Assembly: GCA_948144175.1 (NCBI GenBank)
Contig: CANXME010000553.1
Span: forward strand, 620,001 to 684,000
From: Closterium sp. NIES-65
Taxonomy: Eukaryota > Streptophyta > Zygnematophyceae > Desmidiales > Closteriaceae
Reading direction: 5' to 3'
DNA: 64,000 bases
Positions 2,965 to 26,100 of the stretch are shown here, piece by piece. A program made the position numbers and the translations under genes. The notes below the pieces were generated by a model. It was not told the DNA's origin. It was given only the letters and a program-made list of their open reading frames with translations, and did no database searches. Within the stretch, counting starts at the first letter, position 1. Each line of letters begins with the position of its first letter.

Positions 2965-2965
<1 letters not shown>
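1..2965 (+). pseudogene. LINE copy A, reverse transcriptase plus restriction-like endonuclease, 5' end outside window
   Basis: One reading frame runs from base 2 to the stop at 2837-2839, broken only by two nonsense codons: TGA at 782-784, where the other copies have Arg, and TGA at 2525-2527, where they have Trp. Visible parts are reverse transcriptase blocks (QIDLANAFNAVE, RGVRQGDPLGPLLF, the YADD catalytic box near 1170), a Cys-Asp-Cys...His...Cys zinc-binding cluster (2170-2242) and a restriction-like endonuclease core (LKADVAIRH then MCDVTV). The 3' UTR (2840-2965) ends in the family's ACCATTCGAGAG and runs into (GA)n. The element copies itself by target-primed reverse transcription; this copy looks dead. 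It is in the same orientation as the copies downstream. Confidence 0.9.

Positions 2966-3024
<59 letters not shown>
2966..3024. repeat. (GA)n tract joining LINE copies A and B
   Basis: About 59 bp of pure GA directly follow the 3' end of copy A and directly precede the first base of copy B. It serves as the simple-sequence tail of A and the apparent insertion target of B. Confidence 0.97.
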
Positions 3025-3027
<3 letters not shown>

Positions 3028-3285
3028 ACCCCTTAGCCCCCTGCCCTCTGCCTCACCCCTCTGCCCTCCGCCCTCCAGAGCTATTTAAGGGCTGTTTCTC
3101 TCTCCCCCTCCTCATTATTTCGTGTGGAGTTCATTTCCGGCGGGAGAGAGCGAGAGAGAGAGAGAGGATACCCCTTAGCCCCCTGCCCTCTGCCTCACCC
3201 CTCTGCCCTCCGCCCTCCAGAGCTATTTAAGGGCTGTTTCTCTCTCCCCCTCCTCATTATTTCGTGTGGAGTTCATTTCCGGCGG
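3025..3285 (+). promoter_or_regulatory. Duplicated 5' promoter monomers of LINE copy B
   Basis: Two near-identical units start with GATACCCCTTAG at 3025 and 3167, separated by a short GA stretch (3144-3166). Each holds a TATA-like CTATTTAAG (3081 and 3223) and, about 30 bp further on, a TCATTATTTCG block that fits an initiator. That an internal promoter lies here is inferred from this spacing and from its conservation in copies C and D. Confidence 0.6.
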
Positions 3286-3463
3286 CTCGCGCCGGCGGCC
3301 TTCGGCCGCCGCCGCTCGCCAGCGCGGCCTTCGGCCGCGCGCTCCTGGTGGCAAGGAACAAGGCAGTGGACTGCTATTCCAGGAGAAACACGCATGCACA
3401 GGAATCAAGGGAGCAGAGCCTAGGCAAGAGAGAACGGCATGCAATATTACACGCGGCGGAGGC

Positions 3464-4746
3464 CTACATCGTGTACGGCTCCGCCCCCTCCATCTCAAGC
3501 ATCGAGCGCATACACGCCGATACCGCAAGAAGAAGATGCGCCGATGACTGGAGCACGTCCAGGGGGGTCCCGGCCTGAGCAGCCCCTACAAGATCCCCCA
3601 CGTGGCGGGGGAAAGTACGGGCTAAGGGAGCTACCCCGGCGGGCGCTTCCGACACGGGCGCCAACGGCGACTCGAGCGATCCTGCCAAAGTCACGCAGGA
3701 TCCTCGGGATCCTGGACCGAAACTGCTCGGAAAGTTCCGGGTGGCCCCACACACTGCCAGCTGCAAGTTCGCCACCACCTCGCACGCCTCCGCCAGATTC
3801 AATACCGGCACATGGTCAGCATGGGGTCTCTCCCCACGGGATTGGGGTGAGGTGCAGTCTGCTCTTCGAGCGGAAACGACGCCGACCAGCCAGGAACGCG
3901 GCCAACAGTCAAGCACCCAGCGGAGAAGCCAGGAACCTGACGAGGGGAGCGATAGTCGGGTCTCCCCACCCGCGCGGGCAGATACTCGGCCAACATCGGC
4001 GCGCGCAGTGGGGCCACCGGGCCGGGATCCGCGGCAAAGGGAGGGCCATTTGTCACCTCGATGTGAACGTGAGTCGGCCCCCCGCTCGCCCGGGCCTGCC
4101 GCACCACATCCACGAATGTGTTCGCAGCGTGATCAAGAGCAGGATCCGGCTGGCGGCCAGATGAGCCGCGCCCTCCGCCATTCCGCCGGCCCCGCCGCCC
4201 AGCGGAACCACCCGAATTCGGACGCAGAGGGGACGGCTCGCGACGACCTGATTCCCAGCGACGCCCAGGCGACCCCTTCCCCCGCGTCGCCGGAGCTCGC
4301 CGAGGTGATTGTTGAGCGGGGGATCGCGCTCGGGGTGAGCGCTGGCCTGCTCGACCACGAGGAGACGGGCGCCGAGGAGAGCGAGGACGCTCAGGGGAGC
4401 GCGGATCCCCCTCCCTGCGCTGATAGTGTTCGCGACGCGCGGGAGATAGGCGACGAGGAGACGGCTGCCGTTGGGGATGACGCTGAGGCGAGCGCCCGCG
4501 CTGCTGCGGCTGCTGACCGTCAGGACGGTTCGACGCTACACGCGCAGGAGCCCACGAATACTCAGGGGGGGAGAGGCGCGAGGCTGGCTGATGGGGAAGA
4601 GTCTGCACCCGCTCGAATCGGTGAACGGGCTCGCTTGCGGAGGGATGCGCAGGCAGTCGTGGCCGAGGCTCGGCAGGCGCAGGCTCCCGCGGCGCGCTCT
4701 CCGCGGAATGCTCAAGCTCCGGATCCCGTCTTGCGGACGGGTCCAT
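3464..4746 (-). pseudogene. Antisense ORF of LINE copy B (frameshifted)
   Basis: Homologous to the intact antisense ORF of copy D (14595-15878). The minus-strand frame starts with ATG at 4746 (MDPSARRDPELE), passes through an Arg-Ser-Pro-rich stretch and the conserved segment THVHIEVTNGPPFAADP, and is thrown out of frame near 3805, where B is one base shorter than C and D. The rest (NLAEACEVVANLQLAVCGAT to GAEPYTM) continues in a second frame to the conserved stop at 3464. In 4011-4145, 19 of 23 differences from copy D are third-position changes in this frame. Confidence 0.7.
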
Positions 4747-7700: not shown

Positions 7701-8303
7701 AAAGGGGGGGGGAGAATTGCAACCCACAATGCCCTTCGGGACGAGTGCGCAAAGATAGCTGCGGAAGCGGGCTTCACCGTGCATAAGGAGACAACGGCTT
7801 ACTCACCGGTCGAAAACCTCAAAGCGGATATCTCTATCCGCCATCCCGACACCGGTGAAGTGTGGATCTGTGACATCACGGTCACGGACCCCGTCTCCCA
7901 CCAGGATGAATACGCCCGTAAAGCTCCCGGTTGGGCTGCTAGAATGCAGGCGGACAAGAAGGCAAGCAAATACGCCAGGCGGAGCGCTTGGGTGGGCTTT
8001 TACGCCTTGGCGGTTGAGACCTACGGTTACCCCTCGAGTGGAGTCCTGGAATTCCTTCGCAGCTGCGCGGAGTTAGCGGCCATGCGGCGGTTCAACGCCA
8101 CCCCCAAGTCGAGGGAATGCGCCAAGCTACTCACCGAGTACCGGCAGCGGTGGAGTGTGACCCTGCAGAGAGCGCAAGCCACTGCCCTCAGGGATAAGAC
8201 CCATGAGGCCCTCACGGCGGATGCGCTCGGCCTGCAGGGCCCGTTTACTCCAATGAGTGAAGGGCAGCTGTATCAGTTGATAGAAGACCCCTCCGGCCAT
8301 TAG
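3741..8303 (+). CDS. LINE reverse transcriptase / restriction-like endonuclease ORF (copy B, open)
   Basis: An open frame of 1520 codons. The N-terminal third is low complexity and contains an Arg-Gly-rich stretch (about residues 370-400). Reverse transcriptase covers about residues 720-1050, with QIDLANAFNAVE (Asp 875) and YADD (965-968) as catalytic Asp motifs. A zinc-binding cluster follows (Cys1299, Cys1301, His1315, Cys1319), then the endonuclease core (Asp1363 in LKADISI, Asp1378 in CDITV). The protein should nick the target and prime reverse transcription there. The first 330 codons overlap the antisense gene and show no sense-strand constraint, so the true start is probably near 4737, where C and D have ATG and B has ACG. 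B is the only long copy with an unbroken pol frame. Confidence 0.85.
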   Translation: MAPHTASCKFATTSHASARFNTGTWSAWGLSPRDWGEVQSALRAETTPTSQERGQQSSTQRRSQEPDEGSDSRVSPPARADTRPTSARAVGPPGRDPRQREGHLSPRCERESAPRSPGPAAPHPRMCSQRDQEQDPAGGQMSRALRHSAGPAAQRNHPNSDAEGTARDDLIPSDAQATPSPASPELAEVIVERGIALGVSAGLLDHEETGAEESEDAQGSADPPPCADSVRDAREIGDEETAAVGDDAEASARAAAAADRQDGSTLHAQEPTNTQGGRGARLADGEESAPARIGERARLRRDAQAVVAEARQAQAPAARSPRNAQAPDPVLRTGPSLPTVAQQMPARRRREGETTAAPLAGGEGVAVARATRGICVGRGSRRGRRGSERGRGGGGARGTNRRRTGASGFARNAERLIRQSARGGEEELREEAEEATENERSDEGDPLFNPEREGLLGVEVEEDDEELDRLLQGEEVPSPRARGVPANQTRSEGVGQIPNLGRAASATPTPRNRTARPNRTAPNIAVTTAPASNAGPTPATPAPIISADILARRQDLFADIANWDLGPLRDSRQPPLARHPPRPLRESFAICLLTPLLHLAITPDSTPGWKLLMFLPRILLRSSSARKPDWKAMGDRLTRFRQGQWRGLYDEAAEAVNNNPQPRHVPDTTGKLARAEGLAKRGNLAKSLQSLTATPVCSPTPDVLAALTARHPRATAAIPVWVQDFAPETLPSITAREFRKLLARCPNGVGAGPSGTTFEHLRDAALGNTDVLLQLHALTNTALAGKLSAEAADLLTASRLLAFTKPQGGTRPIAVGECLLRIVTKAALFLAAPAARDHFTPLQFGVAIAGGIEAAIHAARTYLEEFPGATALQIDLANAFNAVERAAVFEGLKGTKLDTLVPLVRLSYGRPSALYLDHDFEAAPLQSARGVRQGDPLGPMLFAASIHPCLAATATAHPEVVLLAYADDITLLGETASCTAAFNHLTEALLSHGLSHNPAKCEAWSATALEPAALPHGVTISRDGIRVLGSPIGPPAGCAARVRERLKAAAEPLPLLSQMDPQLCLLLLTRCVSRRASFMVRATPLEALPLREWSAWGEELFHTYLAAAHTETPRARVERERIWHQAALPASLGGLGITNPAVEGGHAYLAAVTAAAHLLRTFGDAANPALTGLLPLMDSNEESTSLLPRRLAALEAALPPEGIEALQVGRQRPDGPKLQQSLSLAVQTARFMQLLESSREMELNPLFGHTQRLQSLLGPGAGDWLLAVPLISSLRLGPSQFSTAASFRLGLPLPVPRRCDCRYRTTFPDDRLPNHLMRCEKGGGRIATHNALRDECAKIAAEAGFTVHKETTAYSPVENLKADISIRHPDTGEVWICDITVTDPVSHQDEYARKAPGWAARMQADKKASKYARRSAWVGFYALAVETYGYPSSGVLEFLRSCAELAAMRRFNATPKSRECAKLLTEYRQRWSVTLQRAQATALRDKTHEALTADALGLQGPFTPMSEGQLYQLIEDPSGH

Positions 8304-8434
8304 GGCCGGGCGGGGAGGGGGGGGCTGGGGCTGGGATAGTGCGGGGTTAGCTGCTGTTTTGCTGTAGCCTGGCCGTGAGATTGCTGTAGCCTTACCATCT
8401 GTGTACCTCGCTGACATTAATACCAAGGCCCGTT

Positions 8435-8435
<1 letters not shown>

Positions 8436-8470
<35 letters not shown>
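8436..8470. repeat. (GA)n tract joining LINE copies B and C
   Basis: 35 bp of GA follow the 3' end of copy B (AAGGCCCGTTC) and precede the first base of copy C. Confidence 0.97.
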
Positions 8471-8474
<4 letters not shown>

Positions 8475-8690
8475 CCTTAGCATCCAGCCCTCTCCCTCCT
8501 CCCTCTGCCCTCTCCCTCTGGTCCTATTTAAAGGGCCCTCCGTGCCTTCCCTACCTCATTATTTCGTTGGTGTTTCACATTCGGCGTCCCTCTTCCCTCT
8601 GCCCTCTCCCTCTGGTCCTATTTAAAGGGCCCTCCGTGCCTTCCCTACCTCATTATTTCGTTGGTGTTTCACATTCGGCGGCTCGCGCCG
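8471..8690 (+). promoter_or_regulatory. Duplicated 5' promoter monomers of LINE copy C
   Basis: Two tandem units, each with a TATA-like TATTTAAA (about 8525 and 8619) followed about 30 bp later by TCATTATTTCG. The duplication breakpoints differ from those in copy B, so the two duplications arose separately. Confidence 0.55.
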
Positions 8691-8829
8691 GCGGCCGAAG
8701 GCCGCCGCCGCTCGCAAGCGCGGCCTTCGGCCGCGCATTAGGGGTGGCAAGACACAAGACGCGAGTTCGGCATATAAAGGGCATACAAACACACAAGGCA
8801 AGGGGGCAGGCAAGAGCAAGAGGCGCGGC

Positions 8830-11800
8830 ATGCAATTCTACACGCGGCGGAGGCCTACATCGTGTACGGCTCCGCCCCCTCCACCTCAAGCATCGAGCGC
8901 ATGCACGCCGACAACGCAAGAAGGAGATGCGCCGACGACTGGAGCGTGTCCAAGGGGGTCCCGGCCTGAGCAGCCCCTACAAGATCCCCCACGTGGCGGG
9001 GGAAAGTACGGGCTAAGGGAGCTACCCCGGCGGGCCGTCCGACACGGGTGCCAACGGCGACTCGAGCGATTCTGCCAAAGTCACGCAGGATCCTCGAGAT
9101 CCTGGACAGAAACTGCTCGGAAGGCTCCGCGTGGCCCCACACACCGCCAGCTGCAAGTTCGCCACCACCTCGCACGCCTCTGCTAGATTCAGAATCCGGC
9201 ACATGGTCAGCATGGGGTCTCTCCCCGCGCGAGTGGGGGGAGGTGCAGTCGGCGCTTCGCGCGGATACGCCGTCGGCCAGCCTGGAGTTCGGCCAGCAGA
9301 TAAGCGCGACGCAGAGAAGCCGGGGACCTGACGGGGGGTGCGGAACTGAGCCCTCCCCTCTCGCGCGTGCCGATATTCGCTCAGCGTCGGCGCGCGCAGA
9401 GGAGCAACCTGGCCTGGGTCCGCGACGAAGGGGGGACCGTTGGTCACCTCTATATGGACGTGAGTCGGCCCCCCACTCACCCGGGCCTGCCGCACCACCT
9501 CCACAAACGTGTCTGCGGCGTGATCGAGGGCAGGATCCTGCTGGCGACCATTACCGCCACGACCTCCGCCATTCCGCCGGCCTTGCCGGCCGCCAGAACC
9601 TGCCGAGTGAGGACGCGGGGGGGACTGCTCGCGACGCCCCGAATCCCAGCGACGTCCAGGCGACCCCCTCCCCCTCGTCGCTGGAGATCACCGCGGAGAC
9701 CGTTGCGCGGGGGATCGCGCTCGGGGTGAGCGCTGGCCTGCCCGACCACGAGGAGACGGGTGGCGAGGAGAACGAGGACGCCCAGGGGATCGCCGATCGC
9801 CCCCACCCCGCGGATGAGCCTTGCGATGCTCAGGAGATGGGCGCCGAGGGGAGGGCTGCCGCGGAGGCTGACGCAGAGGCGAGCGCCCGCGCTCCTGCCG
9901 CGGCTGACCGTCCGAGCGGTTCGACGCAACACGCGCAGGGGCTCACGAATACTCCGGCGAGGTGGGGCGCGGGGCAGGCCGTTGGGGAAGAGTCAGCACC
10001 CGGTCGAAGCGGCGGACGGGCTCGCTTGCGGAGGGGTGCGCAGGGACACGCGGGCGAAGACCGCCAGGCGCAGGTTCCGGCAACGCGCTCTCTGCGGATC
10101 CCTCGAGCTCCGGATCCTGTCTCGCGGATGGATCCATCACCCCCGACCGCACCGCAGCCGACGCCAGCGCGCCGACAGAACGAGGACGAGGTGGACGTGG
10201 CGCCGCAGGCAGGGCGCGTGGGAGCCGCGGAAGGGAGAGGAACGCGGGGTATCCGCGTGGGACGCGGCAGAAGCCGCCGCGGACGACGAGGGAATGGGAG
10301 GGGACGAAGAGGTGGAGGAGCGCGCGGCACAAATCGGCGCCGCACCGGCGCAAGCGATTATGCGAGAACTGCTGAAAGGCTAATACGCGAAGGCGTGGAA
10401 GGCGGCGAGGAGGAGCACAGCGAGGAGGCAGAGGACGAAGCTGAGAATGAAGAAAGCGAAGGGGGTAACCCTGTTTTTAACCCAGAAAGAGAGGGGATGT
10501 TGGAAGCAGAAGCCGAGGACGAGGAAGAATTGGAGATGCTACTTCGGGAAGCAGAGTTTCCAAACCATCAGGCCCGGGACGAACCTGCAATTCGAACCAC
10601 AGGTCGAAATCGAACAGCGGGGGGAAATCGTGCAAGGGGGGGAAATCGAGCCGCGACAGAAGACGAAATTGACTCTGAAGAAGCCAATGATAATTCTGCA
10701 GGCCCCTCCCCAACCCCACCAACGCTCAAACCTGACGACCTGGCGAAAAATACTGACCTTTTCGCTCAGGTTGCAGACTGGAACCTTGACCCGCTGCGCG
10801 ACAGTCGCCAACCTCCCCTCGCTCGCCACCCCACCAAAGACCTTCGCGACTCCTTCGCGATCTGCATGTTGACTCCGTTACTCCACCTGGCGGCCAATCC
10901 TGAGTCTCCACCATGATGGAGCTTACTGACTTTTCTCCCGCGCTTACTCCTCCGCACCTCGTCAGCCCGCAAACCTGACTGGAGCGCGATGATGAATCGG
11001 CTCCAGCGATTTCGCCAAGGCCTTTGGGGGGACCTGTACGAAGAAGCTGTCCAGGCGATCTCACTGCCACCGCAACCTCGCCACTCACCCGACACAACGG
11101 GGATACTGGCACGGGCAGAAGGACTCGCAAAACGGGGTAACCTATCAAAATCACTCCAATCCCTCCAGGCCACTCCTGTGTCTCCCGCCTCACCTGAAGT
11201 GTTGGAAGCCCTCACGACGAGACACCCATCCGCCTGCCAACCACTTCCTGACTGGCTCCGCACCGCCACAGCGGAAGACCCACCCACTATCGAAGCTCGC
11301 GACTTCAGACGCTTCCTCGCCAAACTCCCCAACGGAGTAGGGGCCGGCCCATCTGGAACAACCTTCGAGCACATCCGCGACGCAGCCCTGGGCAACGCCG
11401 AAGTACTCACCCACCTCCTCGCCCTCACTAACACAGCTCTAGCAAGAAAACTCCCCACAATCGCGGGGGATCTTCTAACGGCATCCCGCCTGTTAGCATT
11501 TATGAAACCACAGGGAGGGACGCGGCCGATTGCGGTGGGGGAGTGCCTCCTCCGGATAATAGCAAAAGCCGCGCTCTTCCTCACTGCGCCGGCCGCTCGT
11601 ACTCACTTTGCTCCGCTTCAGTTCGGAGTCGCAGTAGCGGGAGGGATCGAAGCGGCTATCCACTCCGCTCGCACGTACCTGGAACTGCACCCAGGGGCAG
11701 TGGCGCTGCAGATTGACCTCGCGAATGCGTTCAACGCGGTCGAAAGGAGGGCGGTGTTTGGAGGACTGAAAAACGAGGCGCTGAAGGAACTGATTCCCCT

Positions 11801-13653
11801 CGTCCGCCTTTCCTATGGGACTCCCTCCTCGCTCTTCCTCGACCACGACTTCGGCGCAGCCCCACTGCAGAGCGCCAGGGGTGTTCGCCAAGGAGACCCG
11901 CTCGGCCCACTCCTGTTCGCGGCTAGCATCCACCCGTGCCTCGTGGACACGGCGGCTGCACACCCTCAGGTGGTCCTGCTGGCGTACACCGATGATATCA
12001 CGCTGCTCGGCGACGCCACGGCCTGCTCTGCGGCTTTCGACCACCTCACCTCTGCTTTAGCCGCCCTCAGCCTGGTGCACAATCCGGCTAAGTGCGCGGC
12101 GTGGTCCGCCGCAGCAATCGACGCCTCCTCAGTCCCCCCAGGCGTCACTATCTCTGAGGAGGGTTTGCAGACTCTCGGCAGCCCCGTGGGCACTGCCCGA
12201 GGCTGCGCAGATGCTGTGAGAGCGAGATTGGAAGCAGCAGCAGCGCCTCTCCCCCTGCTGGCCCAGATGGACCCCCAACTTGCCCTCCTCCTCCTCACCC
12301 GTTGTGTCAGCCGCCGAGCTTCCTTCCTGGCCAGAACCACCCCCGTAGAGGCCCTCCTTGAAGCCGAATGGTCCGCTTGGGGGGAACAACTCCTTCACAC
12401 CTTCCTAGACTCGGCCCACATCATGAGGCCGAGGAGCGCCAGGGAGAGACGGAGGATTTGGCGGCAGGCGGCCCTGCCCGTGACTCTGGGAGGCCTGGGC
12501 ATCACTGACCCCGCCGTTGAAGGCAGCTATGCCTACCTCGCCTCAGTGATCAGCACAGCCCACCTCTTGCACTCCCTGGAGGACTCGTTGCACCCCGCTG
12601 TCGCCGCGCTCCTCCCCCTTTTGGATCCAACCCACGGCTCCCCACACGCGCTACCTACACGCCTCGCCGCGGCTGAGGCAGCCCTGCCCCCGAGGCTCTC
12701 GAGGTGCTCCAGGCCGGGAAGGCTGACCCCAAGGGACTGAAGCTGCAGCAGAACCTAGCACTGGCGGTTCACTCCCGCCGCTTCCTGAGAGTCATGCGCG
12801 AGGCGAGGCGGATGCGCCCCAACCCCCGCTCTGGCCATGCGCAACGAATGCAGTCGGTGCTGGGCCCAGGCGCGGGGGATTGGCTGCTGGCGATCCCGCT
12901 CACCCCCTCGCTCCGGATGGGCCCGTCCCAGCTCTCAACTGCAGCTGCCTTCCGCCTAGGCCTCCCCCTCCTAGTGCCTAGACGCTGTGACTGCCGCTAC
13001 CGCACCACCTTCCCCGACGACCGCCTCCCCAACCACCTCATGCGCTGCGAGAAGGGGAAAGGGAGGACCGCAACCCACCACGCTTTGCGGGATGAGATAG
13101 CGAACATTGGGGCGGAGGCGGGGTTTACGGTTCACAAGGAGACGTATGTCTACTCACTGGTTGAAAACCTAAAGGCGGATGTCACCATCCGTCATCCCCT
13201 GACTGGTGAGGTTTGGATGTGCGACGTGACCGTGACGGACCCGGTGTCAAGGCAGGACGAGAACTGCAACCGAGCTCCTGGATGGGCGGCCAGGGCGGCA
13301 GCAGAGAAAAAGGAGGATAAGTACGCACGGCGGAACGCGTGGGTGGGGTTCCACGCGCTTGCAGTGGAAACTTATGGCTACCCCTCGCCGGGGTTGATGG
13401 CTTACCTGCGGCAGTGCGCAGAGCTGGCGGCAAAGCTGCGGTTTAACGCGGCTCCTACCTCCTACGAAGCAGCGAAGCTGCTGACGGAGTACCGCCAGCG
13501 CTGGAGCGTGTGCCTCCAGCGGGCGCAGGCCAACGCCCTCCGCACCAAGACCAACGAGGCCTTGGCGGCGGACGAGCTCGGCTTTAGAGGACCCATCATC
13601 CCTCTCAGTGAGGGACAGCTGCACCAGTTGATTGAGGCCCCGTTCGACCAGTA
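8830..13653 (+). pseudogene. LINE copy C reverse transcriptase / endonuclease ORF, broken
   Basis: The frame is interrupted by a nonsense codon at 10914-10916 (TGA where copy D has GGA) and by a one-base loss in a C run near 12690. The pieces are 9048-10916, 10989-12740 and 12704-13653. Reverse transcriptase blocks, zinc cluster and endonuclease core are all recognisable; the catalytic box reads YTDD where A, B and D have YADD. The probable sense ATG is at 10128, inside the palindrome ATGGATCCAT shared with the antisense start. Confidence 0.85.
8855..10137 (-). pseudogene. Antisense ORF of LINE copy C, broken
   Basis: Begins at the conserved ATG (10137, MDPSARQDPELE) and keeps the conserved segment VHIEVTNGPPF and the C-terminal GAEPYTM with stop at 8855. 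It is split among frames by small indels, one of them near 9034 where C has lost a base relative to D. Confidence 0.6.
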
Positions 13654-13783
13654 GGGTCGGACAGAGGGGGGGGGGCTGAGTAGGTAGGAGACTTGAGGTA
13701 GTTCGGATCTCGGTTTGGATGTTTGTTGTGCTTGTGTGTTCTGCATCTTCCTTTGTACCACCCCTCATAGTAATGCAAGGACC

Positions 13784-14262
13784 CCAGGCTGGGCTGCTAG
13801 AGAGGCACAGAGGCGGAAGGAGAGGGAGTACTACCGACACACGGAACACGTGGTGTTCTGCACCCTAGCCGTCGAGACCTACGGGGCAAACGCGCCCACC
13901 ACGACTGCGTTCCTGAAGCTGCTGGCCACAGCAGCAGCTAGGAACCGGTTCAGGGCCAACCCCCTGGCGAAATCGGCCAAGAAGATGGCCTGCCACTTCA
14001 GCCAGCGCTGGTCAGTGGCCCTCCAGCGCTCCCAAGCGAATGCCCTGCACACCAAGGCCAGGGCTGGGATCGAGGCAGCGCACCCCCAGATGGCAGCGGA
14101 CCCCTGGCCGCTGCACCTGGGGGACATCCTCCACACGCTGGAGGGCTAGAGGGTTACTCAGGGGGGGGTGAAGAGTGGTGAGTTTTGGGGCTTAAGGGAT
14201 GGAGGTTATCATGGATAGCACCGCATGTTTGTACCCCTGCTGAATTAATACAAAAGACCGTT

Positions 14263-14263
<1 letters not shown>
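13784..14263 (+). mobile_element. 5'-truncated LINE copy of a second subfamily (C2)
   Basis: Only the last part of an endonuclease ORF remains. Frame 13784-14149 reads GWAAREAQRRKE, then an Ala-Asn-rich tail ending LGDILHTLEG and a stop. It resembles the C-terminus of copies A-D but is clearly diverged. A 114-bp 3' UTR ends in GACCGTTCGAGAG and (GA)n. It follows copy C without an intervening GA tract. 5' truncation is the usual outcome of incomplete target-primed reverse transcription. Confidence 0.8.

Positions 14264-14336
<73 letters not shown>
14264..14336. repeat. (GA)n tract joining truncated LINE C2 and copy D
   Basis: About 73 bp of GA between the 3' end of C2 and the 5' end of copy D. 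Confidence 0.97.
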
Positions 14337-14340
<4 letters not shown>

Positions 14341-14569
14341 TAGCACCCAGCCCTCTTCCTCTTCCCTCGGCCCTCTTCCTCTGAGCCTATTTAAGGGCCC
14401 TTGGTGCCTTCTTCTCCTCATTATTTCGTGTGTTCTCAGTTTTCCGCGGCTCGCGCCGGCGGCCTTCGGCCGCGCGTTTCTGGTGGCAAGACACAAAACG
14501 GAGGATCGGCTTATATTGGGCACACACACACACAAAGGCAAGGAGCTGGGCAGGAGCAAGAGGCGCGGC

Positions 14570-17500
14570 ATGCAATTCTACACACGGCGGAGGCCTACAT
14601 CGTGTACGGCTCCGCCCCCTCCACCTCAAGCATCGAGCGCATGCACGCCGACAACGCAAGAAGGAGATGCGCCGACGACTGGAGCGTGTCCAAGGTGGTC
14701 CCGGCTTGAGCAGCCCCTACAAGATCCCCCACGTGGCGGGGGAAAGTACGGGCCAAGGGAGCTACCCCGGCGGGCGCGTCCGACACGGGTGCCAACGGCG
14801 ACTCGAGTGATTCTGCCAAAGTCACGCAGGATCCTCGGGTCCCTGGACCAAAACTGCTCGGAAAGCTCCTCGTGGCCCCACACACCGCCAGCTGCAAGTT
14901 CGCCACCACCTCGCACGCCTCCGCCAGATTCAGAACCCGGCACATGGTCAGCATGGGGTCTCTCCCCGCGCGAGTGGGGAGAGGTGGAGTCTGCGCTTCG
15001 CGCGGAAACGCCGCCGGCCAGCCAGGAGTCCGGCCAACAGCCAAGCGCGGCGCAGAGAAGCCGGGAACCTGACGGGGGGTGCGGAACAGAGCCCTCCCCT
15101 CACGCGCGGGCTGATACTCGCGCAGCGTCGGCGCACGCAGAGGAGCGACCTGGCCTGGGTCCGCGGCGAAGGGGGGACCGTTGGTCACCTCAATATGGAC
15201 GTGAGTCGGCGCCCCACTCGCCCGGGCCTGCCTCACCACCTCCACGAACGTGTCCGCAGCATGATCGAGGGCTGGATCAGGCTGGTTGCCATTCCCACCT
15301 CGCCCTCCGCCCTTCCGCCAGCCCCGCCGTCCCCCGGAACCAGCCGAATGTGGACGCGGGGGGGACTGCTCGTGGCGACCCGAATCCCAGCGACGACCAG
15401 GCGACCCCCTCCCCCGCGTCGCCGGAGATCGCCGAGGAGAACGTTGCGCGGGGGATCGCGCTCGCGGTGAGCGCTGGCCTGCCTGACCACGAGGGGATGG
15501 GCGGCGAGGGGAGCGAGGACGTGCAGGAGAACGCTTACCCCCCTCCCCGCGCTGATAGTGCTCGCGACGCTCAGGAGAAGGGCGGCGAGGAGAGGGCGGC
15601 TGTTGAGGGTGCCGCAGAGGCGAGCACCCGCGCTCCTGCCGCGGCTGACCGTCCGGGCGGTTCGACGCAACACGAGCAGGCGCCCACGAATACTGTGGCG
15701 AGGCGGGGCGCGCGGCAGGACGATGGGGAAGCGTTTGAACCCGCTCGAAGTGGTGCACGGGCTCGCTCGCGGAGGGGTGCGCAGGGAGACACGGACGAGG
15801 CCCGGCAGGCGCAGGCTGCGGTAGCGAGCTCTCTGCGGAACCCTCCAGCTCCGGATCCCGTCTCACGGATGGGTCCATCACCCCCGATCTTACCGCAGCC
15901 GACGCTAGTGCGGCGACGAAGCGAAAACGAGACGGCCGCGGCGCCGCAGACAGGGCGCGAGGGAGCTGCTATGGGACGAGCAACGCGGGGAATCCGCGTA
16001 GGACGCGGCAGCCGCCGCGGACGACGAGGCAACGAGAGAGGACGAAGAGGTGGTGGAGCACGAGGTTCGAACAGGCGCCGATCTGGTGCAAGCGGCTACG
16101 CGAGGAATGTGGAAAGGCTGATGCGAAACGGCGCGGAGGGCGACGTGGAACCACTTAGCGAGGAAGCAGAGGAGGAAGCGGAGAATGAGGAAAGTGAAGA
16201 GGGGGACCCTGCCTTTAACCCTGAAAGCGAGGGGATGTTAGAAGCAGAGGCCGAGGAGGACGAGGAAGAGTTGGAGCTGCTGCGGGAAGCGGAGCTCCCA
16301 AACCAGCAGGCTAGAGGTGAACCTGCAAACCGAACCTCAGTTCGGAATCGAACCGCGGGGGGAATTCAAGCAAGGAGGGGAAATCGAGCCGCTCCAGAAG
16401 AAAGAATTGACTCTGCAACACCCAATGAAAATTCCGCAGCCCCGAGTCCAACCCCCCCGATGCTCAAACCTGACGACCTGGCGAAAAACTCTGAGCTATT
16501 CGCTCAGGTTGCAGTCTGGGACCTCGACCCGCTGCGTGACAGTCGCCAACCCCCTCTCGCTCGCCACCCCCCCAAAGACCTTCGCGACTCCTTCGCGATC
16601 TGTATGTTGACGCCGTTACTCCACCTGGCGGCCAATCCCGAGTCTGCGCCAGGATGGAAACTACTGACCTTTCTCCCACGCATACTCCTTCGCACATCGT
16701 CAGCCCGTAAACCTGACTGGAGCGCGATGATGAATCGGCTCCTGCGATTTCGCCAAGGGCTCTGGGCGGACCTATACGAAGAAGCTGTCCAGGCGATTTC
16801 CTTGCCTCCGCAGCCTCGCCACTCACTCGACACAGCTGGAATACTGGCACGGGCGGAAGGTCTGGCAAAACGGGGTAACCTGTCAAAATCACTCCAATCC
16901 CTCCAGGCCACCCCTGTGTCACCTGCCTCACCTGAAGTGCTGGAAGCCCTCGCGACGAGACATCCACCTGCCAGCCAGCTTCTCCCTGACTGGCTCCACA
17001 CCGCCTCGGCTGAAGACCCACCCACTATCGAAGCCCGCGACTTCAGGCGCCTCCTCGCCAAGCTCCCCAACGGAGTCGGGGCCGGCCCCTCAGGAACCAC
17101 TTTCGAGCATATCCGCGACGCAGCCCTAGGGAATGCCGAAGTACTCTCCCACCTCCTCGCCCTCTCCAACACAGCTCTAGCAGGGAAACTCCCAACAGCC
17201 GCGGGGGATCTTCTCACGGCCTCCCGCCTGCTAGCCTTTACGAAACCCCAAGGAGGGACGCGGCCAATAGCGGTGGGGGAGTGTCTCCTCCGGATTATAG
17301 CAAAGGCCGCCCTCTTCCTGACCGCGCCAGCCGCCCGTACTCACCTTGCCCCCCTTCAATTCGGCGTGGCAGTAGCAGGGGGGATCGAAGCGGCTATCCA
17401 CACCGCTCGCACGTACCTGGAAGTGCACCCTGCTGCAGCGGCCTTGCAGATCGACCTCGCGAACGCTTTTAACGCGGTCGAAAGGAGAGCGGTGTTCGAA

Positions 17501-19527
17501 GGACTGAGAAACGAGGCGCTGAAGAAGCTGATCCCCCTCGTCCGCCTATCCTACGGGGCTCCCTCCTCGCTCTACCTCGACCACGACTTCGGCGCAGCCC
17601 CGCTGCAGAGCGCCAGAGGAGTTCGCCAAGGGGACCCGCTCGGCCCCCTCCTCTTCGCGGCAAGCATCCACCCGTGCCTCATTGCCACGGCGGCGGCACA
17701 CCCTCAGGTGGTCCTGCTGGCGTACGCCGATGACATCACGCTGCTCGGCGACGCCTCGGCCTGCACAGCAGCTTTCGACCACCTCACATCCGCACTTGCC
17801 GCCCTCGGCCTGGTACACAACCCGGCCAAATGCGCGGCGTGGTCCGCCACTCCAATCGACCCCTCTGCAGTGCCTCCGGGAATTACTATCTCTGATGAGG
17901 GACTGCAGATTCTCGGCAGCCCGGTTGGCACACCCCGGGGGTGCGCGGGCGCCGTGAGAGAGAGACTGGCAGTAGCAGCATCCCCACTCCCCCTGCTGGC
18001 CCAGATGGACCCCCAGCTTAGCCTCCTCCTCCTCACCCGCTGTGTCAGCCGCCGAGCCTCTTTTCTGGCCAGAACCACCCCCCTGGAAGCTCTCCCTGAA
18101 GCGGAATGGTCAGCTTGGGGGGAGCAGCTCCTACACACCTTCCTGGACTCGGCCCACATCATGAGACCGAGGAGTGCCCGGGAGAGGCGGAGGATTTGGC
18201 GGCAGGCGGCCCTGCCCATGACTCTGGGAGGCCTGGGCATCACTGACCCCGCCGTTGAAGGCAGCTACGCTTACCTCGCTTCAGTGATCAGCGCCGCCCA
18301 CCTTCTATACTCCCTGGAGGAGTCGTTACAACGAGGACTCCAACGAGGAATCTACGTCCCTCCTCCCAAGGCGCCTTGCCGCTCTGGAAGCCGAGCTGCC
18401 TCCTGAGGAGATCGAGGCTCTCCAAGTGGGGAGACAGAGACCGGACGGGCCAAAGCTCCAACAGTCGCTCTCCCTCGCGGTTCAAACTGCAAGGTTCATG
18501 CAACTGCTCGAGAGCTCGCGGGAGATGGAGCTCAACCCACTGTTCGGACACACGCAGCGGCTGCAGTCCCTCTTGGGCCCCGGCGCAGGGGACTGGCTGC
18601 TCGCCGTCCCGCTGATCTCCTCCCTCCGCCTCGGGCCCTCTCAGTTCTCCACAGCGGCCTCCTTCCGCTTAGGCCTGCCCCTACCTGTGCCAAGGCGCTG
18701 TGACTGCAGATACCGCACCACATTCCCCGACGACCGCCTACCGAACCATTTGATGCGGTGCGAGAAAGGGGGGGGGAGAATTGCAACTCACAATGCCCTT
18801 CGGGACGAGTGCGCAAAGATAGCTGCGGAAGCGGGCTTCACCGTGCATAAGGAGACAACGGCTTACTCACCGGTCGAAAACCTCAAAGCGGATATCTCTA
18901 TCCGCCATCCCGACACCAGTGAGGTGTGGATCTGTGACATCACGGTCACGGATCCCATCTCCCTCCAGGATGAATACGCCCGTAAAGCTCCCGGTTGGGC
19001 TGCTAGAATGCAGGCGGACAAGAAGGCAAGCAAATACGCCAGGCGGAGCGCTTGGGTGGGCTTTTACGCCTTGGCGGTTGAGACCTACGGATACCCCACG
19101 AGGGGAGTCCTGGAATTCCTTCGCAGCTGCGCGGAGTTGCAACCGAGCTCCTGGTTGGGCAGCTAGGGCGGCAGCGGCAAAAAAGGAGGAGAAGTACGCA
19201 CGGCGGAACACGTGGGTGGGGTTCCACGCGCTCGCAGTGGAAACATACGGCTACCCCTCGCCGGGGGTGCTGGCTTACCTGCGGCAATGCGCGGAGCTGA
19301 AGGCAAAGCTACGGTTTAACGCAGCCCCTACCTCCTACGAAGCAGCGAAGCTTCTGACGGAGTACCGCCAGCGTTGGAGCGTGTGCCTCCAGCGGGCACA
19401 GGCCAACGCCCTCCGCACCAAGACCAATGAGGCCTTGGCGGCGGACGAGCTCGGTTTTAGAGGACCCATCATCCCTCTCAGTGAGGGACAGGTGCACCAG
19501 TTGATTGAGGCCCCGTTCGACCAGTAG
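14570..19527 (+). pseudogene. LINE copy D reverse transcriptase / endonuclease ORF, chimeric and out of frame
   Basis: Open from an upstream ATG (14483; conserved ATG of MQFYTRRR at 14570; ATG opposite the antisense start at 15869) to 18406, covering the whole reverse transcriptase with YADD near 17730. At the first chimeric junction (about 18328) the frame is lost. 18426-19166 encodes the B-like zinc cluster and endonuclease, and 19139-19527 encodes a C-like C-terminus in a third frame. The copy is therefore unlikely to make a complete pol protein. Confidence 0.85.
14595..15878 (-). CDS. Conserved antisense ORF in the LINE 5' region (copy D, intact)
   Basis: 427 codons on the strand opposite to pol, from ATG (MDPSVRRDPELE) to a stop shared by copies B, C and D (GAEPYTM-stop). 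Parts: an acidic and proline-rich N-terminus; an Arg-Ser-Pro-rich stretch around residues 105-205, like an RS domain; a conserved segment with DPALDHAADTFVEVVRQAR and THVHIEVTNGPPFAADP (about residues 205-250); and a conserved C-terminus (NLAEACEVVANLQLAVCGAT). I recognise no family. Between B (4011-4145) and D (15143-15277), 19 of 23 differences are third-position changes in this frame, which are second positions for the sense frame. That pattern is expected of a translated antisense gene. Function is unknown; an RNA-binding ORF1-like role is only a guess. Confidence 0.65.
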   Translation of the reverse strand: MDPSVRRDPELEGSAESSLPQPAPAGPRPCLPAHPSASEPVHHFERVQTLPHRPAARPASPQYSWAPARVASNRPDGQPRQERGCSPLRHPQQPPSPRRPSPERREHYQRGEGGKRSPARPRSPRRPSPRGQAGQRSPRARSPAQRSPRRSPATRGRGSPGRRWDSGRHEQSPPRPHSAGSGGRRGWRKGGGRGGNGNQPDPALDHAADTFVEVVRQARASGAPTHVHIEVTNGPPFAADPGQVAPLRAPTLREYQPAREGRALFRTPRQVPGFSAPRLAVGRTPGWPAAFPREAQTPPLPTRAGRDPMLTMCRVLNLAEACEVVANLQLAVCGATRSFPSSFGPGTRGSCVTLAESLESPLAPVSDAPAGVAPLARTFPRHVGDLVGAAQAGTTLDTLQSSAHLLLALSACMRSMLEVEGAEPYTM

Positions 19528-19658
19528 GGTCGGACAGGGGGGGGGGCAGAGTAGGTAGGGGACTTGGAATAGTTAGGATGCCGGTTTTCTGTTGAGCTTG
19601 TGCTTGTGTGTTTTGCACCTTCCGTTGTACCACCCCCCAAAGAAATGCAAGGACCATT

Positions 19659-19659
<1 letters not shown>

Positions 19660-19755
<96 letters not shown>
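19660..19755. repeat. (GA)n tract joining LINE copy D and truncated copy D2
   Basis: 96 bp of GA, the longest such tract in the window, directly after the 3' end of copy D. Confidence 0.97.
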
Positions 19756-19756
<1 letters not shown>

Positions 19757-20142
19757 GCGCCCCCCACGACGGCGTTCCTGAAGCTGCTGGCCACAGCAGC
19801 AGCTAGGAACCGGTTCAGGGCCAACCCCTTGGCGAAATCGGCCAAGAAGATGGCCTGCCACTTCAGCCAGCGCTGGTCAGTGGCCCTCCAGCGCTCCCAG
19901 GCGAATGCCCTGCACACCAAGGCCAGGGCGGGGATTGAGGCAGCGCACCCCCAGATGGCAGCGGACCCATGGCCGCTGCACCTAGGGGACATCCTCCACA
20001 CGCTGGAGGGTTAGAGGGCACTAAGGGGGGGGGGGGGGGGGGGAGGGTCAGAGGGATGGGTTGATGGGTCGGAAGGTATAAGGGAACCACGAGTCAAATT
20101 GCATGTCTGTACACCCTGCTGAATTAATAGTAAGGACCATTT
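19756..20142 (+). mobile_element. 5'-truncated LINE copy of the second subfamily (D2)
   Basis: Starts abruptly after GA and matches the truncated copy at 13784-14263: the shared frame from PTTTAFLKLLATAAA to LGDILHTLEG ends at 20014, and the 3' UTR ends in GGACCATTTGAGAG. A G-rich run lies at 20025-20042. This is the most 3' unit of the array and abuts the phosphofructokinase gene. Confidence 0.8.
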
Positions 20143-20154
20143 GAGAGAGAGAGA
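20143..20154. repeat. Short (GA)n at the array/phosphofructokinase boundary
   Basis: Twelve bases of GA lie between the last LINE and the phosphofructokinase sequence. On the gene strand this is a TC run just downstream of exon 11 and is probably what remains of the original target microsatellite. Confidence 0.85.
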
Positions 20155-20167
20155 AGCACTCCATCAC

Positions 20168-23100
20168 CCCGTGCACTGCCCCGTGCGCCAGCAGCGTGCA
20201 GTATATGTTGTCACTCGCATTCGCTGGAATGGTGCGGATCATGTACGTGGGGTCTGGTGGGGGAGGAGGTTGATTTTGAGGGGCCTCAAATATCGCTGGG
20301 ATGGTGCATGTCATGTATTAATTCTAGTTGCATTTAGAAGTGCGGAGGGTATGGTGGGTGGGAGCGGGAGAGAGGATAGCAGGAGGGAACCTTTTAGTGG
20401 GCACACAAGGATGGTGCAAATCATGCCATGCATGTCCGTGGGTTGCGGGGTTCCACCCATCGCACACACTCCAAAGCACATTCTCATTCAACCGCCAGCC
20501 CATCCACGCCTGCACCAACACACTTCAACTAAATCTCTTTGCTCCTGATCTGTGCAGACATCAACAGCCCCACGACCATCAGCCCCGCGTTCCCCGACTC
20601 ACCACGCCCCCTAGCCCCACCACCAATACCACCCACCCACCCAGCACCGATATACTTGAGTTGGATCTCCTTGCGCTGCCCGGCGAAATGACTCTTGATC
20701 TGTGCATACAACCACAGCCCCACCTGCTCACCCACACACAACCCCACACCCATGCACACATGCCCGCACTCATGCCCACACCCATGCACACATGCCCGCA
20801 CTCATGCCCGCACCCATGCACACATGCCCGCACTCATGCCCACACCCATGCACACATGCCCGCACTCATGCCCACACCCATGCACACATGCCCGCACTCA
20901 TGCCCACACCCATGCACACATGCCCGCACTCATGCCCACACCCATGCACACATGCCCGCACTCATGCCCACACCCATGCACACATGCCCGCACACATGCC
21001 CACACCCATGCACACATGCTCGCACTCATGCCCACACCCATGCACACATGCCCGCACTCATGCCCACACCCATGCACACATGCCCGCACTCATGCCCACA
21101 CCCATGCACACATGCCCGCACTCATGCCCACACCCATGCACTCATGCCCACACCCATGCACACATGCCCGCACTCATGCCCACACCCATGCACACATGCC
21201 CGCACTCATGCCCACACCCATGCACTCATGCCCACACCCATGCACACATGCCCGCACTCATGCCCACACCCATGCACACATGCCCGCACTCATGCCCACA
21301 CCCATGCACACATGCCCGCACTCATGCCCACACCCATGCACACATGCCCGCACACATGGCCGCACTCGTGGCCGCACCAATGTATTTGAGTTGAATGTCC
21401 TTGCGCTGCCGCGCGAAGTGGCTCTTGATTTGCCCCGACAGCCACAGCCCCACGTCCATCAGCTTCGCATTCCCCGACGCATCTCGCCCCATCCCTGCAC
21501 CACCAGCAACGTCATCATCGCTGGCGCTCATGTGGCGAGCCATGTTCTCCTGCCCCGCACCCTCCGCCACGACCAGCACGCAGTGCTCGTTCTCATACAG
21601 GCGCCGGTCAATGAAGTCAAACAGGCCTCCTGGGCCCTCCAGGTGGAAGGGCACCTCGGGGATCAGGCAGCAGTCCTGTGTGGAAGGTGGCGCGAGGGGG
21701 GGTTGAGGGGGTTGAGAGGAGGAAAGGGAAGGATGAATAACGGAGCCTCGACGATTAGGAAGAGGGGAAGGGATCGAAGGTGAGCGACCACTGAGGATAC
21801 ACACTCGCACGCACTCACACACGTGCACATTTACCAAATCCCGGCTTGCAAGGTGGCGTGCATGGCGATCTGTCCACAGTACCGCCCCATGAGCTTCACC
21901 AGCCGTGCTGGACATGCTTGAAAGTAGTACAGGGCTAGGCCAGCAAGGACGCACGCACTAACGACGCCCTCACACACACACGCACATACCACGTCCCTGC
22001 TAGCTAGACTGGTGTGCATGGCGATCTGTCTACAGTACCACCCCATGAGCTTCACCAGCCCCACGCCATTGCGAGTGCAGCGAGGAAGGACACTCACACA
22101 CTTCCCCCTCCCCCCACACACACGCACATACCACATCCCTGCTCGCAAGGGTGGCGTGCATGGCGATCTGACCGCAGTACCGCCCCATGAGCTTCACCAG
22201 CCCCACGCCGTTGCGGGTGCTCTCCGCCTCCACATGCGCTGCATATATCGCCCTCTGCGCCTCCTCCACTGCCGTGTCAAACCCGAATGACCGGTCGATT
22301 ATCTGATGGAGGGGCATGTGGAAGGGTGGGAAGCGGGGAGAGAGAGCAGAAGACGGGCGTTGATGACCCTCTGTGTCTCCTCCACTGCCGTGTCAAACCC
22401 GAATGACCGGTCGATTATCTGATGGGGCATGAAGAAGAGTGGAGGAATGAGGGTGGAGAGAGAGGAGGGATGGGGGAGGGCCGTTGCGAGTGCTCTCCGC
22501 CTCCACATGCGCCACGTGGATGGCGAATGTGATCGTGGATCGCCCTCTGCGCCTCCTCCACTGAGCTGAATTTTGAGTCAACTCAAAAGTCAGCTCGAAT
22601 GTGGTCGTGGATCGCCCTCTGCGCCTCCTCCAGTGCTGTTTGGAATCCGAATGACCGGTCGATTATCTGATGGGGCAATGAATAAGAGAAGAGGGATGAG
22701 GGGAGGGAAGAAAAACAAGGCTGTACTGTATGGTGAAAGAAACACTAAGAGAAAGAATACATTACAGGTACCCTGCACAGCTGCAACCTGTCAGGAATCT
22801 TCGTCACCCCCTTCTTCCCCCCTTCTTGCCCATTTCTTGCACCCATTTTTGCCCCTATTACCCCCTTGCCCCGTTGTCCCCCGTGCCCCCCTTTCCCCCG
22901 TGCCCCCCTTGCCCTCGTTGCCCCATTCCCCCCCTTGTCCCCCTTGTACCCCCCCCACCCTTGCCTCCTCGACCCCCTCCACCTGCGATGGTGTGGGCCT
23001 CTAGGGCGAGTGACGCGACTCACAGCGATGTCAATTTTTGAGGCGCCTCAAAAACCCTCCACCTGCGATGGTGTGGGCCTCTAGGGCGAGAGCAGCCACT

Positions 23101-26100
23101 CACAGCGATGGTGTGGGCCTCTAGGGCGAGAGCAGCCACTCACAGCGATGGTGTGGGCCTCTAGGGCGAGAGCAGCCACTCACAGCGATGTCATTGTCAA
23201 TGGTCTTAGGGATGCCTGCCACTGCCACCTTCAGGCCGCGCCGCCTCGTCTCCTGCACCACCACCATCCCAGCACAGCATTGGTGACAGGAGCGGTGGAA
23301 GCGGGGAGAGACATGAAAGACTCAGGGAGGGGTATTGCTTGGAGAAGGATGGGACAAGTGGTAGCAGTGGGGTGTCGAGCGCAGGGAAAGGAAAAGGAAA
23401 ACGAACGGGCGGAGCGACAAGAGATGGACGATGGAGATTAATCGACAACGAGGTGGCTATGAAAGGGAAGTGCACTGTTGCACACATGTGCGAACTTCTG
23501 CAGCAGGATTATGAAATTCTGCTGCTTGCACATGTGTGCAACAGTGCCTTCCCCTCCCCGTCTACCCCCATACTGTCCGTCTACCCCCATACTGTCCGTC
23601 TACCCCCATACTGTCCGTCTACCCCCATACTGTCCGTCTACCCCCATACTGTCCGTCTACCCCCTTACTGTCCGTCTACCCCCATACTGTCCGTCTACCC
23701 CCATACTGTCCGTCTACCCCCATACTGTCCGTCTACCCCCATACTGTCCGTCTACCCCCATACTGTCCGTCTACCCCCATACTGTCCGTCTACCCCCTTA
23801 CTGTCCGTCGACCCCCATACTGTCCGTCTACCCCCATACTGTCCGTCTACCCCCATACTGTCCGTCTACCCCCATACTGTCCGTCTACCCCCATACTGTC
23901 CGTCTACCCCCATACTGTCTGTCTACCCCCATACTGTCCGTCTACCCCCATACTGTCCGTCTACCCCCATACTGTCCGTCTACCCCCATACTGTCCGTCT
24001 ACCCCCATACTGTCCGTCTACCCCCATACTGTCCGTCTACCCCCATACTGTCCGTCTACCCCCATACTGTCCGTCTACCCCCATACTGTCCGTCTACCCC
24101 CATACTGTCCGTCTACCCCCATACTGTCCGTCTACCCCCATACTGTCCGTCTACCCCCATACTGTCCATCTACCCCCATACTGTCCGTCTACCCCCATAC
24201 TGTCCGTCTACCCCCATACTGTCCGTCTACCCCCATACTGTCCGTCTACCCCCATACTGTCCGTCTACCCCCTTACTGTCCGTCTACCCCCATACTGTCC
24301 GTCTACCCCCATACTGTCCGTCTACCCCCATACTGTCCGTCTACCCCCATACTGTCCGTCTACCCCCATACTGTCCGTCTACCCCCATACTGTCCGTCTA
24401 CCCCCATACTGTCCGTCTACCCCCATACTGTCCGTCTACCCCCTTACTGTCCGTCTACCCCCATACTGTCCGTCTACCCCCTTACTGTCCGTCTACCCCC
24501 ATACTGTCCGTCTACCCCCTTACTGTCCGTCTACCCCCTTACTGTCCGTCTACCCCCTTACTGTCCGTCTACCCCCATACTGTCCGTCTACCCCCTTACT
24601 GTCCGTCTACCCCCATACTGTCCGTCTACCCCCTTACTGTCCGTCTACCCCCTTACTGTCCGTCTACCCCCATACTGTCCGTCTACCCCCTTACTGTCCG
24701 TCTACCCCCATACTGTCCGTCTACCCCCTTACTGTCCGTCTACCCCCTTACTGTCCGTCTACCCCCTTACTGTCCGTCTACCCCCATACTGTCCGTCTAC
24801 CCCCTTACTGTCCGTCTACCCCCATACTGTCCGTCTACCCCCTTACTGTCCGTCTACCCCCTTACTGTCCGTCTACCCCCTTACTGTCCGTCTACCCCCT
24901 TACTGTCCGTCTACCCCCATACTGTCCGTCTACCCCCATACTGTCCGTCTACCCCCATACTGTCCGTCTACCCCCATACTGTCCGTCTACCCCCATACTG
25001 TCCGTCTACCCCCATACTGTCCGTCTACCCCCATACTGTCCGTCTACCCCCATACTGTCCGTCTACCCCCATACTGTCCGTCTACCCCCATACTGTCCGT
25101 CTACCCCCATACTGTCCGTCTACCAGCCCCCTGCCTGCCAGACACCCCCTGCCAGCCGGCCGCCTGCTTGCCTGCACTGCCTACCTCATAAATGAGCTCC
25201 GCCCCTCGCTGCGTGCCATCGCCTCCGATGATGAACACCTGCCATGCAATACCATGACATGCCATGCCATGCCGTGCCATGCCATGCCATGCCATGCCAA
25301 GCCATGGGTGCACAGGTGGCAGGGGTTTCGTGGATGAGTGCATGAGCATACGAGTGTAGCGTGATTTGTGCTGTCAACACATGTGTTCCCACCTCACCCA
25401 GTTGACGCCTCACCTAGATGATGCCTCACCAAGTTAACGCCCCACCTGGTCAACGCCCCACCTGGTTGATACCTCACCCAGTTAACGCCTCACCTGGTTA
25501 ATTCCTCACCCAGTTAACACCTCACCAGGTTGATGCCTCACCCAGTTAACGCCCCACCTGGTTGATGCCTCACCCAGTTAACGCCTCACCAAGTTAACGC
25601 CCCACCTGGTTGATGCCTCACCAAGTTAACACCCCACCTGGTCAACGCCCCACCTGGTTGATGCCTCACCAAGTTAACGCCCCACCTGATCAACGCCTCA
25701 CCTGGTCAACGCCCCACCTGGTCAACGCCCCACCTGGTCAACGCCCCACCTGGTCAACGCCCCACCTGGTCAACGTCCCACCTGGTTGATGCCTCTATCC
25801 TCAATCGAGTTGACAATCCGGGTGGTATCGTGCCCGCCGCGGGAAGTACCCAGGAAGGTTCCTCCGCGCTTGTGAATGTCGTTGATCACCCACGGGTTGA
25901 GCTCCATGAGGTTCCGCGAGTAGAAGCCCCGGTACCCACCCTGTGCGCGCAGTATGACAGAGGGAGGGGGGAGGGTGGAAGGAGGGTTAGTGAATACCGT
26001 TGATCACCCACGGGTTGAGCTCCATGAGGTTGCGTGAGTAGAAGCCACGGTAACCGCCCTGTGTGATTGATATGGAGAGGTAGGGGATGGGTTGGAGGGG

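Follow-up and report, generated by a model that had tools for sequence, protein, structure and literature searches.

An R2-like LINE that is inserted in tandem and associated with (GA)n tracts in Closterium sp. NIES-65 has probably kept about 1.28 kb of its sequence readable on both strands. A gene of 427–429 codons lies on the minus strand, and computation supports conservation of its protein both among genomic copies and between two subfamilies. Computation also supports a plus frame that is depleted in stops from an ATG located 25 nt before the antisense stop into pol. Since the sense frame is open from this ATG through the antisense gene, with stops depleted, the sequence indicates that the antisense gene is nested within the pol ORF. 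The original prediction had proposed a second LINE gene on the opposite strand, overlapping the 5′ region of the element; the gene itself stands, but the region that it overlaps is the N-terminal part of the reverse transcriptase (RT) ORF. The most far-reaching reading, which we consider reasonably probable, is that a pol ORF and an unrelated antisense gene fully nested in it have long been kept together, one through selection on its protein and the other through selection on at least its openness, possibly with an antisense switch.

In eukaryotes, a complete overlap of two conserved protein genes on opposite strands is, to our knowledge, rare and difficult to prove. The present one can be measured with the dozens of copies, at various degrees of divergence, that a single genome provides. 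If the antisense gene is expressed, the LINE would gain a second gene product without becoming longer, and the complementarity of its two transcripts along the full gene would make self-control or silencing of the element directly testable. An antisense switch, if true, would provide both a protein and a complementary RNA from one transcript of a bidirectionally coded retrotransposon.

Organization of the antisense gene

The window, which is the whole 64,000-nt stretch of contig C553 that was analysed, contains four LINE copies (A to D) in a head-to-tail array at positions 1–19760, with GA tracts at the junctions. Copy A belongs to a diverged second subfamily, and its antisense gene lies just before the window (C553:618230–619354). 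A near-identical LINE array is found on contig C615. The main features are collected in Table 1.

Table 1. Positions of the antisense gene, its parts and the surrounding LINE features in the window.
Feature	Position	Strand	Remarks
Antisense gene, copy B	3464..4746	minus	Broken: 1-nt deletion
Antisense gene, copy C	8855..10137	minus	Broken: 1-nt deletion and two in-frame stops
(GA)n tract, 5′ junction of copy D	14264..14335	plus	
TATA-like CTATTTAAGG of the sense leader	14387..14396	plus	183 nt before ATG 14570
Sense ORF, copy D	14570..18406	plus	Starts at the conserved ATG, spans the antisense gene and runs on into pol
Antisense gene, copy D	14595..15878	minus	Intact, 427 codons; supported by dN/dS and homologues
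Antisense residues 308–427	14598..14957	minus	Four predicted helices, modest confidence
Variable antisense linker, ~40 codons	14951..15069	minus	Little or no constraint: dN/dS 0.79–1.46 (B/C/D), 0.72 (16 pairs pooled)
Antisense residues 202–236	15171..15275	minus	Predicted helix 202–221, then the THVHIEVTNGPP segment singled out in the original prediction
Antisense residues 1–200	15279..15878	minus	Basic, RS/SP-rich, Gly/Arg stretch at its end
Reverse transcriptase domain RVT_1, copy D	17243..17845	plus	E 2.9e-17

Translation of the copy D gene gives the intact product that had been announced, with 427 residues and a stop, beginning with MDPSV and ending with EPYTM. The genes of B and C are broken, and what they have kept in common with D is the start triplet, the stop triplet and the order of the domains. 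A frame scan shows that the antisense frame of copy D stays open up to 15968, and the true antisense start may thus sit slightly upstream of the ATG. An N-terminal extension up to 15968 is possible, in which case the antisense protein would be longer or would have two starts. Six database models (P0005, P0006, P0011, P0020, P0023 and P0025) have their N-terminus extended into 15880–15970. Over this same interval, dN/dS among B, C and D is 0.24–0.37 in the antisense frame versus 1.13–2.00 in the pol frame, and the values become ambiguous when pooled over 16 pairs (antisense 0.58, pol 0.89).

Coding constraint on the minus strand

The 427-codon antisense ORF is under purifying selection. The short comparison on which the prediction was built proved exact: B 4011–4145 and D 15143–15277 differ at 23 of 135 sites, of which 19 are third positions of the antisense frame, and hence second positions of pol, and two belong to each of the other classes (binomial p=1.7e-6). 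As had been stated, most of these changes are silent in the antisense frame: the amino acid is kept in 19 of the 23 changed antisense codons, versus 2 of the 23 changed pol codons.

The same contrast was obtained by the Nei–Gojobori method for the three pairs among B, C and D. Over D 15070–15878, dN/dS is 0.27, 0.25 and 0.25 in the antisense frame, versus 1.16, 1.22 and 1.22 in the pol frame, and the situation is reversed downstream, over 15971–16330, with 0.17, 0.20 and 0.14 in the pol frame and 1.46, 1.44 and 2.10 in the antisense frame. The alignment of the three 5′ regions shows changes mainly at antisense third positions from D 15070 to ~15909, and mainly at pol third positions from ~16030 onward. 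The switch of constraint between frames does not coincide exactly with the antisense ATG. The sense frame that shares its third positions with the antisense frame was also considered as a coding frame; it contains 10 stops in D 15070–15878 and therefore cannot explain the substitution pattern.

The comparison was extended to 16 pairs of genomic copies, hand-picked to be diverse; since some copies recur in several pairs, the pairs are not independent. A dN/dS near 1 in the antisense frame, which had been named as the outcome that would speak against the gene, did not occur in the copies chosen: all 16 pairs give 0.24–0.42, and a separate comparison of seven pairs that involve copies of the second subfamily gives 0.33–0.42. 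When the 16 pairs are pooled and the antisense gene is divided into seven windows, antisense values are 0.21–0.43 in all of them but the linker. The pol-frame dN/dS over the antisense gene is 0.74–1.78 by pair and 0.77–1.85 by window, and its pooled value falls to 0.23–0.30 downstream of this gene. Between copy D and the second-subfamily copy L053, the antisense proteins are 53% identical over 424 codons (pS 0.57, pN 0.30, ratio 0.35), while the plus-frame identity is 35%. Indels restricted to triplets were examined as a further sign of coding and gave no such support: among the 12 rows with an indel relative to D inside the gene, six have multiples of three only and six do not.

Genomic copies and linkage to pol

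A protein search, in which the 7992 candidates with most words in common were scored, retrieved at least 64 relatives of the antisense protein. All are labelled Closterium, from strains NIES-64, NIES-65, NIES-53, Yama58-4 and Naga37s-1, and several of the matches listed cover 92–100% of the query at 43–51% identity. In the 874 Mb assembly, 98 antisense places were scored out of 17587 candidates, from which 30 loci with 1.5 kb flanks were used, and ten more loci were chosen for divergence. A second genome search led to the diverged subfamily, for which eight loci were fetched. Pol is found on the opposite strand, adjoining the antisense start, in all 40 loci of the first set, for which the query also included the two pol proteins and antisense matches were recognized by strand and query range. 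The same head-to-head layout is present in all eight loci of the second subfamily.

Linkage was also counted from the side of pol. The count used the 98 antisense places plus 28 further ones, and 91 of 94 pol rows, three second pieces having been dropped; these 91 pol places are the scored part of 3102 candidates. Among the pol places listed, 73 of 91 face an antisense place in head-to-head orientation, separated by 128–1114 nt, and in 64 of these 73 the distance is 592–673 nt. The other 18 have no listed antisense partner, which may be due to 5′ truncation or to antisense places beyond those scored.

The antisense ORF is free of frameshifts and inner stops in 27 of the 43 aligned rows and broken in 16; these rows represent fewer independent copies, since L009 is copy D itself and L010, on another contig, is near-identical to it. 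L035 and L045 have an unbroken ORF, yet their first codon is not ATG. Among the eight second-subfamily loci, five have an open antisense frame of 429 residues and three a broken one. An antisense stop at the position equivalent to D 15645 is common to L023 and L024, on different contigs, and another one is common to L014 and L016, on a single contig. Such shared stops suggest that an antisense-null source may once have been mobilized, perhaps in trans.

The 5′ module of L029 is 90–97% identical to D up to ~16100 and 81–89% identical beyond, L035 is 93–95% identical to D beyond 16250, and L030 and L031 are alike at the protein level. An exchange of 5′ ends between pol lineages is possible for L029–L031 relative to D.

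The sense frame through the overlap

The openness of the plus frame through the overlap is supported by several lines of evidence. The ATG at 14570 is kept in 42 of the 43 rows, at 25 nt from the antisense stop. The same distance is found for the first in-frame ATG of the second-subfamily copies L053 and L055; In L050 and L052 an in-frame ATG already occurs before that point, and in L049 the plus frame is interrupted by a stop close to where the overlap ends. Counted back from 15971, the sense frame runs without a stop for 467 codons or more in 27 of the 43 rows and falls short of this length in the other 16, and both frames are open over the overlap in 20 rows of the 43. The sense frame of copy D ends short of the pol C-terminus. 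Several copies found via pol have a plus frame open over ~1620–1670 codons, measured from stop to stop, as would be required for a single ORF running from ATG 14570 through pol.

Stops are scarce at the sites where they could arise. Copy D has none at 70 possible sites (7.4 expected), and L053 none at 77 (7.6 expected). Two sets of 12 rows, both hand-picked for diversity, sharing members and not independent, were used to count stop-making codon pairs. An earlier set, of first-subfamily rows only, has nine rows without such a pair, one pair in each of L040 and L029, and two in L045; in the other set, the pairs are absent in 10 rows, L029 and L049 having one each, versus 6.2–8.5 expected. Silent antisense changes creating a sense stop were seen in 1 case out of 29 (L019), when 9.2 would be expected from the rate of other silent changes of matching type (Fisher's test: transitions, p 0.027; transversions, p 0.013). 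Synonymous shuffles lead to 6.6, 5.8 and 7.0 expected plus-frame stops for D, B and C, respectively, with none seen, the signal being weak for D 15072–15878 taken alone (2.8 expected, P=0.035).

Codon-pair controls were added after the shuffles, since avoidance of T followed by A could mimic stop depletion. Control pairs ending in xAC, xGC or xCC are near expectation. Pairs in which xAT or xGT precedes A are seen 1–3 times in the first subfamily, versus 4.0–4.7 expected, and 4 times in the second, versus 4.2–4.7 expected. Part of the sense-stop depletion of the first subfamily may thus reflect this avoidance.

Simulations in which only the antisense protein is constrained start from copy D and use a simple acceptance rule, and their results are to be taken as a guide. 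They give 6.2–6.8 plus-frame stops, with zero stops in 0–2% of runs. The ratio of antisense second-position to first-position changes reaches at most 1.39 in simulation; it is 1.49 for the pair D–L047, which has no plus-frame stops, and 1.19 for D–L053, a value that two of the four simulation settings also produce within their range. The plus-frame amino-acid identity of D–L047 is 0.50, and the antisense-only simulations give 0.47–0.51. Since this identity is reproduced by simulation and the D–L053 ratio lies in range under two settings, no clear constraint on plus-frame amino acids emerges over the overlap.

Alternative explanations

One alternative is a divergent gene pair. Only the antisense strand would then code over 14595–15878, pol would start near an ATG at 15971, and the open plus frame would be accidental. 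The high pol-frame dN/dS over the antisense gene (0.74–1.78 in the 16 pairs) agrees with such a pair, and so does the onset of strong pol constraint only past ~15970. The plus-frame identity is no higher than in the antisense-only simulation, and the near-identical L029–L031, as well as L040, keep the antisense ORF despite a plus-frame stop. What an accidental open frame explains poorly is the stop depletion in two diverged subfamilies, the conservation of ATG 14570 in all rows but one, and the unusual order of the changes summed over the 16 pairs, where antisense first positions (651) come below second positions (975), the sense second positions totalling 1819. We therefore regard a divergent pair as unlikely.

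The same position counts bear on the idea that the antisense ORF is a functionless by-product of a GC-rich sense gene. The GC content is indeed 66% in 14001–16000, and the window abounds in long mechanical ORFs (85 of at least 150 aa). However, along most of the overlap, change is most frequent at sense second positions, where sense coding predicts the opposite, and the antisense proteins of D and L053 are still 53% identical at a pS of 0.57, so that a by-product appears highly improbable. A conservation of regulatory or RNA-structural nature, rather than protein-coding, might be evoked by the DNA of 14600–15050, which is better conserved than both flanks (80–99% identity in windows 14600 to 15049 for the D pairs compared). 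It has against it the three-base periodicity and the excess of silent changes, together with an Rfam scan of 2800–20200 in which no family reached its gathering score and sub-threshold matches fell mostly on GA tracts; we give it very little credence. Just as hard to sustain is a host or satellite gene adjoining the LINE copies by chance, in favour of which there is only the fact that the libraries searched gave no homologue among known LINE proteins: the geometry is the same in 48 of 48 fetched loci and in 73 of the 91 pol places listed, and the sense ORF extends 25 nt past the antisense stop. The nested arrangement, with an antisense gene kept inside the pol ORF, thus remains the preferred reading.

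The antisense protein and its possible role

The antisense protein is basic at one end and acidic at the other. Residues 1–200 have a pI of 12.0, with 40 K+R versus 14 D+E, and the C-terminal 127 residues are acidic (pI 5.2). The AlphaFold model of the full-length protein has a mean pLDDT of 48, with very low confidence and no confident structure for residues 1–199, and weakly supported helices at 202–221 and between 308 and 419. When modelled alone, the C-terminal 138 residues reach a mean pLDDT of 65, with four helices. The sequence searches gave no Pfam match at E 1 and no PDB match at E 10, and no Foldseek hit was obtained with the C-terminal model at E 0.001 (best values 1.2 for PDB and 0.36 for viral structures). 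From composition, our guess would be an accessory nucleic-acid-binding protein, whose basic arm may bind nucleic acid and whose predicted helices may oligomerize.

If both genes of the nested pair are used, a sense RNA from the TATA-bearing leader would yield one long protein. Its N-terminal ~467 residues would form a fast-evolving arm, which must stay open but whose sequence would be of minor importance. The antisense protein would be translated from another RNA, with its start at some point within the N-terminal region of pol. Composition would suit a trans-acting accessory protein, combining a basic RS-rich arm for nucleic acid binding with a helical oligomerization domain, and this protein might do a chaperone job like that of ORF1 or Gag, or limit copy number. 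If both RNAs are made, their complementarity would extend along the full length of the antisense gene, and the protein would thereby be coupled to self-control at the RNA level.

Relation to known minus-strand genes

Minus-strand coding is known in retroelements, the L1 ORF0 and HBZ being examples. Human L1 ORF0 is a primate-specific product of ~70 aa encoded in the 5′UTR. It shares with the Closterium gene a minus-strand location in the 5′ part of a LINE; the latter, in contrast, has a product of 427 aa, belongs to an R2-like element, within whose pol ORF it lies, is found in two subfamilies, and falls outside the definition of ORF0 as a short ORF in the antisense 5′UTR of L1. The HTLV-1 HBZ and other retroviral minus-strand genes are likewise conserved and overlap plus-strand coding sequence of a retroelement, and by analogy a role as a trans regulator is conceivable for the Closterium gene. 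An HBZ-type regulator has a bZIP domain, a minus-strand mRNA and an effect on plus-strand transcription. The predicted Closterium gene differs in that it lies in a LINE rather than an LTR element, and the Pfam search at E 1 found no bZIP domain in its product. We know of no LINE with an antisense gene of several hundred codons nested in its pol ORF.

The LINE element, its leader and its surroundings

The sequence identifies the element as an R2-like LINE. Its reverse transcriptase is of the non-LTR type (RVT_1, E 2.5e-19) and matches R2 proteins of solved structures in the PDB (E 1e-7). The element has a single long ORF, another likeness to R2-type LINEs, from which it differs by the nested minus-strand gene and by (GA)n at its junctions. 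Near the C-terminus of copy B, a CCHC cluster and a KAD-x14-D stretch could be read by eye, which would fit the restriction-like endonuclease motif; a PDB search with this part gave no endonuclease match. The GA tracts at the junctions within the window are compatible with target-primed insertion at a specific site, without demonstrating it.

Leader signals were counted in the 38 of 43 rows for which a script located the start motif (five were missed). A box of the CTATTTAAGG type lies 179–218 nt before the start motif in 35 of these 38 rows, with two boxes in many of them, and a GA tract is present within the stretch examined in 32 of the 38. On the minus strand, no TATA-like motif conserved across copies was found ahead of the antisense ATG. 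The sense leader, TATA-like box included, is tandemly duplicated in B (3081–3232), in C (8524–8628) and in many fetched copies, and these duplicated leaders look like stacked promoter units.

Other repeats are found nearby. Just after copies C and D, the segments 13739–14143 and 19775–20008 are ~35% identical to the pol C-terminus and are apparently 3′ ends of another related LINE. Copia-type retrotransposon genes occupy 52882–58197 and 36083–37726, both with an integrase core and only the former with RVT_2. Tandem repeats with 32- and 19-bp spacing, searched for up to 24000, overlap long open frames at 20575–21400 and 23463–24000.
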